In this document: piece after piece, positions 22,924 through 35,515 of the stretch | Position numbering within the stretch: position 1 is the stretch's first letter | Layout: each line of letters starts with the position of its first letter | Assembly (NCBI GenBank): GCA_036378675.1 | Contig: DASUWA010000004.1 | Span: 1-41,341 of the forward strand | Source of the DNA: Acidimicrobiales bacterium | GTDB lineage: Bacteria > Actinomycetota > Acidimicrobiia > Acidimicrobiales > Palsa-688 | Direction of reading: 5' to 3' | Length of the DNA: 41,341 bases | Notes under the pieces: generated by a model | What the model was told of the DNA's origin: nothing | Databases searched by the model: none | What the model saw: the letters and a program-made list of their open reading frames with translations, nothing else | Position numbers and translations under genes: made by a program

Positions 22924-23847
22924 ATGTCCATGCCGCCTCGGATCGCGATCGGGCCGAAGAGCGCAGCGTTCGCCGAGAACGCAGTCAGAGCTGGCGGGGG
23001 ATTACCCGTGAAAATCGACGAGCCCGCCGAAGCCCTCGTCTGGCTGTCCGCGCATGACTTGGATTGTTTGAGCGAGGTCCTCGAGGACCGGCCCGACCTG
23101 CGATGGGTGCAGCTCCCCTTCGCCGGCGTCGAACGGGCGGTCGAAGCGGGGATCATCGATTCGAACCGCCTGTGGACCTGCGCAAAAGGGACTTACGCGG
23201 AGCCCGTTGCCGAGCACGCGCTGGCCCTCGCCCTTGCCGGCCTTCGCTGCCTCACCGAGCGAATCCGAGCGAAGACCTGGGGTTCACCCGCGGGTGTCTC
23301 CATTTACGGCCAACCGGTCACCATCCTCGGGGGCGGTGGGATCGCGACCGAACTGCTGAACGTTCTCCACCCCTTCGCCGTTAGGACGACCGTCGTCCGC
23401 CGGCTCGACGTCCCGCTCGCCGGCGCTACCGAGACGTTCACCGTCGACCGGATAGGTGACGCCGTCCGGGGAGCGCGGGTGGTGTTCGTGGCTCTGGCGC
23501 TCACCCCGGAGACCGAGCGCATCGTCGACGCCAAGCTCCTCGAGCAAATGGGCGAGCAGGCATGGCTGGTCAACGTCGCGCGCGGGCGTCACGTCGACAC
23601 CCACGCGCTCGTCGAGGCGCTTCACTCCGGGACCATCGCCGGCGCCGGCCTCGACGTCACCGATCCGGAACCCCTTCCCGACGGGGATCCGCTCTGGACT
23701 GCGCCCAACTGCATCATCACGCCGCATACCGCGGACACGTGGGAGATGGTCCTGCCCCGACTGTCCGAACGCATCCGGGATAACGTCGCCGCCTTCGCCG
23801 CCGGCGAACCTCTCCGCGGTCCGGTCGACCCGGAGGCTGGTTACTGA
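22924..23847 (+). CDS. D-isomer-specific 2-hydroxyacid dehydrogenase
   Basis: The 307-residue protein has the NAD-binding motif VTILGGGGIATELL, VVFVALALTPETERIVD, the catalytic Arg in NVARGRHVDTHAL, the catalytic Glu in DVTDPEPLPDGDPLW and the catalytic His in IITPHTADTWEM. Members reduce 2-oxo acids (hydroxypyruvate, glyoxylate, phosphohydroxypyruvate types). It is shorter than SerA and has no ACT domain. The next gene appears to start by CTG overlapping this gene's TGA stop, so the two form a coupled pair; the partner is PLP-dependent and threonine-synthase-like, which suggests an amino-acid-related route, as inference. Confidence 0.88.
   Translation: MSMPPRIAIGPKSAAFAENAVRAGGGLPVKIDEPAEALVWLSAHDLDCLSEVLEDRPDLRWVQLPFAGVERAVEAGIIDSNRLWTCAKGTYAEPVAEHALALALAGLRCLTERIRAKTWGSPAGVSIYGQPVTILGGGGIATELLNVLHPFAVRTTVVRRLDVPLAGATETFTVDRIGDAVRGARVVFVALALTPETERIVDAKLLEQMGEQAWLVNVARGRHVDTHALVEALHSGTIAGAGLDVTDPEPLPDGDPLWTAPNCIITPHTADTWEMVLPRLSERIRDNVAAFAAGEPLRGPVDPEAGY
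23832..23836 (+). promoter_or_regulatory. Ribosome binding site before the CTG start
   Basis: GGAGG ends seven bases before CTG 23844, inside the end of the dehydrogenase gene. Confidence 0.55.
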
Positions 23848-24887
23848 CCTGGCGAGAGGTTTGCCGGCGCTGCGGCCTGATCCAGCCGTTCGCCGGAAGG
23901 TGGCTGTGCGACTGCGGAGGTCTCCTCGACCTCGCCGGCCCACCGGCGGACCCCGTAGCGGACCTCCCGCCGCAGCCGTGGTCGATGTGGCGATACGGCA
24001 GTTCGATTCCTCCCGTCGAATCCTGGAAAAAGGCGACGCTCGGCGAGGGAATGACCCCCCTCGTCGAGATCTCCCCGGGTTTGTCGCTCAAGCTCGATCA
24101 GGTCTCGCCAACAGGATCCTTCAAGGACCGCGGGGCTGCGGTGCTGGTGTCGCTTGCCGCGGACCTCGGGGCCGGCACGGTCGTCGCGGACAGCAGCGGT
24201 AACGCGGGAAAGGCCGTCGCCGCGTACGCGGCGCGTGCCGGTCTGCCCGCCGAGGTCTACGTTCCTTCCGGCACTGCGGAGACGAAGTGCGCCGCCGCTC
24301 GAGCTAGCGGGGCCGAGGTCATCGTCGTCGACGGCGACCGGTCGGTTGCGGCTGCGGCCGCGAGGGCGCGCGTCCTGGACCCGTCGGCGTTCTACGCCAG
24401 CCACGTGTACCAGCCCGCGTTCGTACACGGGGTTAAGACCATCGCGTACGAGATCTGGGAGCAACTCGGCGGCGCGGCTCCCGGGACGGTCGTCGTTCCG
24501 GCAGGGAACGGAACTCTCGTCCAGGCGATGTGGCTGGGCTTTTCCGACCTGAACAGAGCCGGCCGAGTTCGCGGGTTGCCTCACATCGTGGCGGTTCAAG
24601 CCGAACGCTGCGCCCCGATCGCGGGTCTTACGATCGCCGAGTCACCGACGGCAGCCGCGGGCATCGCCATTGCCAATCCTCCTCGCGTCGGCCAGGTGAG
24701 GGCGGTCGTGGTTGCATCTGGGGGCCAAGTCGTGACCGTCTCTGAGGACGAACTCGAGCCCGCGCAAGACGAGCTGGCGAAGATGGGGATCGCGGTGGAG
24801 ATCACGTCGGCGGCGGTATGGGCGGCTTGGAAAAGGGGAGCCGCCCCCGCAGACGGATCTGTCGTGATCGTCCTCACTGGCCGCTGA
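23844..24887 (+). CDS. Threonine-synthase-like PLP enzyme with N-terminal zinc ribbon, probable CTG start
   Basis: From CTG 23844 the 347-residue protein begins with a zinc ribbon, Cys at 7, 10, 22 and 24 (VCRRCG ... WLCDCGG), as in threonine synthases and relatives. The fold-type II core follows: SPTGSFKDRG with PLP Lys94, DSSGNAG for the phosphate, and VVPAGNGTLVQ. There is no ATG, GTG or TTG between the in-frame TAA at 23781 and the ATG at 23985, which would delete the ribbon. CTG overlaps the preceding TGA (CTGA) and has GGAGG seven bases upstream. Threonine synthase (homoserine phosphate to threonine) is likely but a related lyase cannot be excluded. Confidence 0.8.
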   Translation: MTWREVCRRCGLIQPFAGRWLCDCGGLLDLAGPPADPVADLPPQPWSMWRYGSSIPPVESWKKATLGEGMTPLVEISPGLSLKLDQVSPTGSFKDRGAAVLVSLAADLGAGTVVADSSGNAGKAVAAYAARAGLPAEVYVPSGTAETKCAAARASGAEVIVVDGDRSVAAAAARARVLDPSAFYASHVYQPAFVHGVKTIAYEIWEQLGGAAPGTVVVPAGNGTLVQAMWLGFSDLNRAGRVRGLPHIVAVQAERCAPIAGLTIAESPTAAAGIAIANPPRVGQVRAVVVASGGQVVTVSEDELEPAQDELAKMGIAVEITSAAVWAAWKRGAAPADGSVVIVLTGR

Positions 24888-33772: not shown

Positions 33773-34312
33773 GTGGCCGACCACGAGTTGGTAGGTCCAT
33801 TTCCTGCGGGTGTGGACCCCGACGCTTACGACCGGGCCCGCCGGCGGATCCTGTGGGCGATGCCTAGCGGCCTTTACGTGCTTGGAAGCGCCGCCGATGG
33901 ACGGCGCAACCTGATGACGCTCAACTGGGCGTCGCAGGTCGCCACGAATCCCAAGCTGGTCTCGGTCAGCGTCGAGGTCGGGGCGGTGACCCACCAGCTG
34001 GTTCGCGACGGCGGGGGCTTCGCGCTGAACATCCTCTCCCGGGAGGATCGGGCGATCGTCCGCAAGTTCGTCAAGCCTCTTGAAGACAGTGGTGACACGG
34101 GAAGCTTGGGCGGTTTCGACGTCAAAGAGGCGGCGACGGGCTCACCGATCCTTGCGGTTGCTCTTGCCTGGCTCGACTGCGAGGTGCGGCATGAGGTGCC
34201 CTGCGGGAGCCACACCGTTTTTATCGGCGAGGCGGTTGCCTGCGGCGGGGAGCCGGATGACGATGCCGAGGTCCTTCGGATGGAGGACACTCGGATGAGC
34301 TACGGCGGCTGA
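33773..34312 (+). CDS. Flavin reductase-like FMN-binding protein
   Basis: The 179-residue protein fits the flavin_reduct domain: SGLYVLGSAADGRRNLMTLNW near residue 35, PKLVSVSVEVGAVTHQLV, FALNILSRED and VPCGSHTVFIGEAVAC. Such proteins bind FMN and pass electrons from NAD(P)H, often for monooxygenases or as general flavin reductases; partner unknown. The next gene is in the same frame 24 bases after this stop, with no canonical start codon between. Its GTG start is supported by TAGTCT six bases before. Confidence 0.87.
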   Translation: MADHELVGPFPAGVDPDAYDRARRRILWAMPSGLYVLGSAADGRRNLMTLNWASQVATNPKLVSVSVEVGAVTHQLVRDGGGFALNILSREDRAIVRKFVKPLEDSGDTGSLGGFDVKEAATGSPILAVALAWLDCEVRHEVPCGSHTVFIGEAVACGGEPDDDAEVLRMEDTRMSYGG

Positions 34313-34322
34313 CCCGCCGGTC

Positions 34323-34328
34323 GAGGAG
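34323..34328 (+). promoter_or_regulatory. Ribosome binding site before the ATT start
   Basis: GAGGAG, eight bases before ATT 34337. Confidence 0.55.
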
Positions 34329-34336
34329 CGCCTTCC

Positions 34337-35515
34337 ATTTACGACCTGATCACTACCGAGGGTGACCTTGAAGCGCTCGTCAAGCGCCTGTCCTCGGCGC
34401 GGCGGTACGCGCTCGACACCGAGTTCCACCGCGAGCGGACCTACTGGCCTCAGCTCGCCCTGGTCCAGATCGCGTGGGACGGGGACGGGTCCGGCCTGGC
34501 CGGCGTGGCGGTAATCGACCCGATGGCCGTCGACGTGCGCCCGCTCGCAGGGGTTCTGGCCGGGCCCGGCCTGATGGTCGCCCACGCAGCCGAGCAGGAC
34601 CTCGAAGTGCTTGAGAGGTCGTGTGGCCGGGGACCCTCTCGCCTGTTCGACACCCAGGTCGCAGGTGGGTTCGCAGGGTACGGCTCTGCGAGCCTCTCGA
34701 CTTTGTCCCAGGCCTTCCTCGGAAGAGAGGTTCCCAAGGGCGACCGGCTGACCGACTGGCGCCGTAGGCCGCTCACCGAATCGCAGCTTGCATACGCGGC
34801 CGCGGACGTCGAGCACCTCATCGCGCTGGCCGATTCCATCATCGTGGAGCTCGAACGGCGGGGGCGGCTGGGGTGGGCGGAAGAGGAGTGCGAGATGCTC
34901 CGTACCCGTCCCCACGGAGGGGGCGACCCGGTTCGTGCGTGGTGGAAGCTTCGCGACTCGCGATCCCTCAAAGGCGGCGCCCGAGGCGTCGCCCAGGAGG
35001 TCTCCGCGTGGCGGGAACGGCAGGCCCAGAAGGTCGACCTGCCGGTCCGCTCGGTCCTGCCCGATCTGGCGGTCCTGTCGATCGCCCATCGCCCACCTGC
35101 TTCGGCGAAGGCGCTGTCGGAGGTGCGCGGGCTCGAAGGGCGCCGGCTTCGAGGCGAGGTGGCTGACGAGGTGCTCGAAGCGGTCGAGAGAGGCCGGCGT
35201 CTCCCGGCGGAGCAGCTGGTCCTGCCTCCTGCAGACGAGGTCCCGCGCGAGATGCGAGCCGCCGTGGCTCTTCTCATGGCATGGATCGTGCAGGTTGCCC
35301 GGGACGAACGGGTCGACACGACGTTGCTGGCCACCCGTTCGGACGTGGCCGCACTCGTCAGGGGCGACCCGTCCGGGCGCCTTGCGAAAGGCTGGAGAGC
35401 GGAGATGATCGCCGGTCCGGCGAAGGCGTTGATCGAGGGCCGGGCATCGCTCGCTTTCGACGGGACCGACCGGCTGGTTCTCGAGACCCGCTCCAGCCGA
35501 CCCCTGAAGAGCTAA
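34337..35515 (+). CDS. RNase D-like 3'-5' exonuclease with HRDC domain, probable ATT start
   Basis: From ATT 34337 the 392-residue protein has DEDD exonuclease motifs: ALDTEFHRERTYWPQLALVQ (Asp27, Glu29), VAHAAEQDLEVL and YAAADVEHL, then an HRDC domain (PDLAVLSIAHRPPASAKALSEV) and a tail. RNase D trims 3' ends of tRNA and other stable RNA. Between the in-frame TGA that ends the flavin reductase (34310) and the GTG at 34505 there is no ATG, GTG or TTG, and the GTG would remove exonuclease motif I. ATT has GAGGAG eight bases upstream; CTG 34346 is an alternative. The 3' end overlaps the GH13 gene by four bases. Confidence 0.82.
   Translation: MYDLITTEGDLEALVKRLSSARRYALDTEFHRERTYWPQLALVQIAWDGDGSGLAGVAVIDPMAVDVRPLAGVLAGPGLMVAHAAEQDLEVLERSCGRGPSRLFDTQVAGGFAGYGSASLSTLSQAFLGREVPKGDRLTDWRRRPLTESQLAYAAADVEHLIALADSIIVELERRGRLGWAEEECEMLRTRPHGGGDPVRAWWKLRDSRSLKGGARGVAQEVSAWRERQAQKVDLPVRSVLPDLAVLSIAHRPPASAKALSEVRGLEGRRLRGEVADEVLEAVERGRRLPAEQLVLPPADEVPREMRAAVALLMAWIVQVARDERVDTTLLATRSDVAALVRGDPSGRLAKGWRAEMIAGPAKALIEGRASLAFDGTDRLVLETRSSRPLKS

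Follow-up and report, generated by a model that had tools for sequence, protein, structure and literature searches.

The infC gene, which encodes initiation factor 3 (IF3), starts with AUU, AUC or AUA and is autoregulated by IF3. The E. coli gene for RNase D, rnd, is under translational regulation, and Binns and Masters reportedly found in 2002 that the AUU start of E. coli pcnB limits poly(A) polymerase. This limit is also described in PMC1780047 and PMC9410913. AUN start codons outside infC are already known, in pcnB and in S. aureus ccpN, and Streptomyces sigR likewise has a non-canonical start. According to PMC5472188, the infC start in Streptomyces is ATC, and sigR, which starts with GTC, is repressed there by IF3. 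Mapped starts in S. aureus include AUU and AUA, which gave about 10% of AUG in poor medium and, for one of them, as much as 30% when the medium was rich (PMC13009471), and mycobacterial reporters with a Shine-Dalgarno (SD) site initiate robustly from ATT, which made up 9.8% of the selected pool, with ATC weak (0.2%) and CTG not enriched (0.03%) (PMC4633059). The first-pass annotation had stated that ATT starts are known for very few genes; this holds for E. coli (PMC9410913) but not for S. aureus and mycobacteria.

The window, by which we mean the whole 41,341-nt stretch of DNA analysed, carries an rnd gene with the following features in and around its start region.

33773 to 34312, + strand: upstream gene, flavin reductase-like (Pfam PF01613), with a GTG start and TGA 34310-34312 at its end
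34323 to 34328, + strand: Shine-Dalgarno site GAGGAG, duplex of -7.3 kcal/mol with CCUCCUU, 8-nt spacer
34337 to 34339, + strand: ATT, proposed rnd start codon, from the SD spacing and AUN in other genera
34337 to 35515, + strand: rnd, RNase D, 392 aa, exonuclease domain at 3-172 and HRDC domain at 217-283
34415 to 34423, + strand: codons of exonuclease motif I, D27-T28-E29, from the alignment with E. coli RNase D
34505 to 34507, + strand: GTG, first canonical in-frame start, residue 57, past motif I

The unusual start of rnd is confirmed. The stop-to-stop frame (34313-35515, + strand) is open throughout its 400 codons, and in the window sequence it holds no ATG, GTG or TTG between TGA 34310-34312 and GTG 34505. 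As the first-pass annotation had it, every canonical codon in frame lies downstream of motif I (D27, E29), and ATT 34337, with GAGGAG eight bases before it, again came out as the best initiator after the stop of the upstream gene. CTG 34346 and ATC 34349 were rejected as starts, being non-canonical too and having no SD at a suitable distance. The gene is single-copy in the window genome (G000), a draft assembly of 75 contigs. An exact search of this assembly for the 16S tail gave no match, hence the anti-SD was not seen there.

When read from ATT, the protein matched Pfam DNA_pol_A_exo1 (PF01612) with an E-value of 1.5e-30, and an HRDC domain (PF00570, E 9e-11) followed the exonuclease domain. 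In a gap-free alignment, D27 and E29 fell opposite D28 and E30, the catalytic residues of E. coli RNase D. In this alignment, made with PDB entry 1yt3, window residue 2 pairs with residue 3 of the E. coli protein at the alignment start. The 5' end of rnd in E. coli MG1655 reads TTG AAT TAC, and the E. coli protein with this TTG start begins one residue further upstream than the window protein, placing the ATT within one residue of a known start. The D-x-E of DEDD exonuclease motif I and the HRDC domain that characterise RNase D are both present, and judged from its domains and alignment the predicted protein is RNase D.

E. coli rnd thus encodes the orthologous enzyme and has a weak codon at nearly the same place, but its TTG is a canonical weak start. 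Like rnd, infC has an AUN start behind a clear SD, and this codon is ATA in infC here; unlike infC, rnd has a product other than the factor that reads the codon, and control, if any, would run one way with no feedback loop. E. coli pcnB also encodes an enzyme of RNA 3' ends, whose supply is limited by AUU according to the accounts cited above, but it is a different enzyme in a different phylum, and the relatives of rnd vary among AUU, AUC and AUA. Outside infC, Streptomyces sigR is another actinobacterial gene that combines a non-canonical start with a strong SD; it differs in that its start is GTC rather than AUN, that it was bench-tested and that it encodes a sigma factor (PMC5472188). S. 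aureus cvfC1 (AUU), ccpN and citZ (AUA) share AUN starts with rnd, and S. aureus infC, cvfC1 and ccpN have an extended SD as rnd has an SD; these cases belong to another phylum and to other functions, and were supported by ribosome profiling (cvfC1, ccpN) and reporters (PMC13009471). In the open-licence literature we found no report of an AUN start for RNase D, and nothing on point for non-canonical starts in Acidimicrobia with RNase D or for translational regulation of E. coli rnd or of RNase D with UUG. RNase D looks like an addition to the known set of genes with non-canonical starts.

Comparison of starts among orthologues, a check proposed in the first-pass annotation, revealed an AUN codon and an SD at the homologous place in relatives. 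An rnd match was present in 28 of 32 family genomes, and 28 family loci were compared. The nearest genus (G007, 74% identical) has TAGGAG, a 7-nt gap and then ATC at residue 1; G001 has AAAGGAGG, 5 nt and ATC at residue 1; and G029 has AGGAGGGG as SD and ATA at residue 2. In G010 (locus L003) there were AUC candidates only, with a weaker SD of -5.6 kcal/mol, and we graded this case as likely, not clear. The non-canonical start is thus kept in three other genera clearly and in a fourth probably, so that, with the window, AUN occupies residue 1 or 2 in five genera, none of which has a canonical start from -35 to +6. The SD was -6.8 kcal/mol or better in four of these five (window ATT, G007 ATC, G001 ATC and G029 ATA). 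Translation from GTG 34505, which would yield a protein lacking motif I, has in its favour that this is the first canonical start in frame, but the stretch from residue 2 to 56 can be aligned with E. coli RNase D as well as the relatives, and motif I would be lost; moreover, G007 and G029 likewise lack any canonical codon before motif I is reached, and in G001 the sole one is a GTG at residue 15 without SD. We give this route almost no credence. Orthologues without motif I, named beforehand as the outcome that would speak against the unusual start, were absent from the family: DTEF was found in 27 of the 28 loci, and the 28th, L014, has it too. Separately, locus L023 (G013) has an SD before GTA at residue 2, where its genus-mate G029 has ATA, which points to a possible GTA start; a GTG is also present at -31. 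The one named isolate at genus level, Acidiferrimicrobium (L033, on the same contig as L010), has GTG candidates rather than AUN.

To judge how often such an SD occurs by chance, we set the threshold at the weakest of the four clear cases (7-mer duplex of -6.8 kcal/mol or better, spacer 5-7). Among 25 family rnd genes, an SD at this threshold stood before 4.05% of 6500 internal codons and before 2.3% of 218 internal AUN codons, so the SD sites at the proposed starts are more than chance would give. In the 24 nt that precede the proposed start, the window and G007 agree at 6 positions, and the agreement ranges from 3 to 11 positions across five relatives. Codons 2-56 showed pN of 0.25 and pS of 0.56 against G007; the contrast was weaker for codons 2-26 alone (pN 0.35, pS 0.62 with G007; pN 0.41, pS 0.46 with G006). 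A base error masking a true ATG or GTG, or decay of rnd into a pseudogene in the window genome, might be suspected because the assembly is a draft. It is however extremely improbable, since pN is below pS over codons 2-56, the frame is open with motif I intact, and separate genomes of other genera carry ATC, ATC and ATA. On these three codons the ATT is unlikely to be a sequencing accident, and sequencing error was rejected.

The flavin reductase gene and rnd share one frame in the window genome, and the upstream stop lies 24 nt from ATT. This arrangement would suit a route in which rnd is reached by read-through of TGA 34310 or by a frameshift in the flavin reductase gene, with a fused product of about 580 aa as the result. 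The distance from the upstream stop to residue 1 is 10 nt in G007, 133 nt in G001, 99 nt in G029 and 44 nt in G010, and the frames are 0 in the window, 1 in G007, 1 in G001, 0 in G029 and 2 in G010. Hence the stop is out of frame in G007, G001 and G010; G029 is in frame, yet its stop is the 99 nt away and a further in-frame stop lies between it and the rnd start. In addition, the similarity between G000 and G007 is gone upstream of the start. With distances and frames varying in this way, neither read-through nor frameshift nor tight coupling looks like the usual route to rnd, and we regard a fusion protein as barely credible; read-through or frameshift from the upstream gene was ruled out by the stop positions in the relatives.

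We next consider how far the trait extends. The rnd set of 117 loci comprised 113 from family and order genomes and four named records (L035-L038), one of which, L036, is not assigned to the order. An rnd match was present in 237 of 298 order genomes, and of these 80 outside the family were taken, from the top of the ranked list, so that remote rnd genes are under-sampled. Six loci repeating contigs already in the set and two fragments were dropped, and L075 and L088 share the tested stretch. A canonical codon was found at residues -14 to +6 in 100 of the 117 loci, SD not being required, and only at -15 to -35 in nine; one ran to the contig edge. The seven loci with no canonical codon from -35 to +6 are the five AUN genera, L036, which has ATC at -4 behind GGGGG, and L118. 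The last of these (G270) has a CTG at residue -7 behind AGGGGA. In the phylum check, where rnd matched in 86 of 149 genomes, 21 of 30 loci were used: 19 belonged to other classes, one to the window's class and one to its order. The other nine were the window itself and eight loci of its order. In four of the 21, motif I went unrecognised and the locus was positioned from the alignment. Among these mostly more distant loci, 20 of 21 had a canonical codon at -35 to +6. These counts, 100/117 and 20/21, indicate that the AUN trait is concentrated in one family clade. The exception in the phylum sample, L287 (G345), had no canonical codon in that range, and no SD-backed near-cognate was found there.

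In a protein tree of 34 rows, the five AUN rows fell within an 11-row clade of modest support (81/89), together with L007, L005, L006, L008 and L041, which have GTG, and L023. The GTG codons of this clade lie at -1, -4 and -5, and none is at residue 1. At least three changes between AUN and canonical starts are needed on the tree, or four with L023 and L036 scored as non-canonical. Given these GTG positions, an AUN start may have been ancestral and then lost, or it may have been gained several times.

The infC gene of the window genome itself has ATA behind AAGGAG with no canonical codon near. At the aligned start of infC, 27 of 30 family loci (L046 and L156-L182) have ATA preceded by an SD that reaches the -6.8 kcal/mol threshold, the remaining three being unreadable at the 5' end. 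A canonical in-frame codon was also listed in 10 of these 27, among them an ATG at -13 with a strong SD in L175, so ATA is not the sole candidate everywhere. In several infC loci an out-of-frame ATG was seen between the SD and the ATA (AAGGAGTGATGTCGCATA). As controls we used two further genes. For tyrS, all 19 close orthologues had a canonical start no more than one codon away from the aligned position; they come from a set of 29 loci, whose ten remote members (27-40% identity) were excluded. The flavin reductase gene had a canonical start in 22 of the 24 loci with a match (32 given), and the other two were cut by the locus edge.

Taken jointly, we consider it likely that AUU 34337 is the codon at which translation of rnd begins, that little RNase D is made and that its synthesis is sensitive to IF3. 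A start at AUU appears very likely from the alignments and the SD. Low-efficiency initiation there under IF3 control, by which RNase D would be held low, is probable, and we infer it from the ATA of infC here together with the Streptomyces, mycobacterial and S. aureus data. The initiator tRNA would read AUU 34337 as fMet, with the GAGGAG site offsetting the poor codon pairing. Since AUN starts are rejected by IF3, RNase D would be made at a small fraction of the AUG level, and when IF3 is scarce or less active its synthesis would go up, as for E. coli infC and Streptomyces sigR. The rare start and the AUN codons in relatives suggest that RNase D is made slowly on purpose, and from the biology of IF3 elsewhere and the infC ATA here the codon may sense initiation fidelity. 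If IF3 control were important, wider conservation would be expected, and the local distribution of the trait counts against this reading.

The same pattern could arise with no regulation at all, if a strong SD leaves the start codon free to change between AUU, AUC, AUA and GUG, with RNase D simply in low supply. Drift of this kind is consistent with the alternation of AUN and GTG starts within one clade, with at least three changes on the tree, and with the strong SD sites in all four clear AUN cases. On the other hand, tyrS showed no AUN drift in any of its 19 orthologues, and infC, a known IF3 sensor, carries AUN in the same family. Both points weigh against drift without being decisive, and we hold it to be possible though unlikely.

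If the AUU start of rnd is functional, an exoribonuclease joins the few genes restrained by their start codon, and initiation fidelity would have a link to RNA 3'-end processing. Related genera alternate among AUU, AUC, AUA and GUG, a natural series in which to test what such a codon is for. Start prediction by gene finders rests on ATG, GTG and TTG (PMC5472188), so that genes like rnd are trimmed or lost; a trimmed RNase D from the window would be without catalytic motif I.

A gene for a SpoU-family methyltransferase was seen downstream of infC (L189, 16575-15694, - strand; also L295-L323). Of its 30 family loci 28 could be aligned, and CTG stood at the aligned start in 14, with TTG in three, GTG in two, ATG in two and other codons in seven at the same position. 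Eight of the 14 CTG rows had no canonical codon at -35 to +12 and six had one. The alternation of codons suggests that the aligned codon is the start; the absence of CTG enrichment in the mycobacterial reporters argues against a CTG start. From their sequences, infC, rnd and the SpoU-type gene suggest a set of RNA genes behind non-canonical starts. That in this family of Acidimicrobiales-type actinobacteria they form an IF3-controlled regulon (AUA in infC, CUG in the SpoU-type gene, AUU, AUC or AUA in rnd), in which RNA processing and ribosome making would rise together when IF3 is short, seems to us doubtful and quite improbable.

Finally, 798 kb of the window genome were compared with 448 kb of G007 for orthologue pairs with both 5' ends inside. 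This gave 73 non-overlapping pairs, a sample from which no unbiased rate can be taken because the rnd and infC regions were sampled on purpose. Three pairs had no canonical start in both genomes, namely rnd, the SpoU-type gene and what by eye we judged to be an apparent shadow frame. The canonical codon was missing in one genome only in five pairs, infC among them, the G000 infC having in this comparison a TTG 24 codons in. In both genomes of five further pairs, including tyrS, the nearest canonical codon was more than 12 codons away from where similarity begins. Elsewhere in the window, a gene for a PLP-dependent enzyme (Pfam PALP; 23844 to 24887, + strand) has as its best start CTG 23844-23846, which overlaps the upstream stop as CTGA behind CGGAGG with no canonical codon there; its G007 orthologue has GTG at the matching codon.
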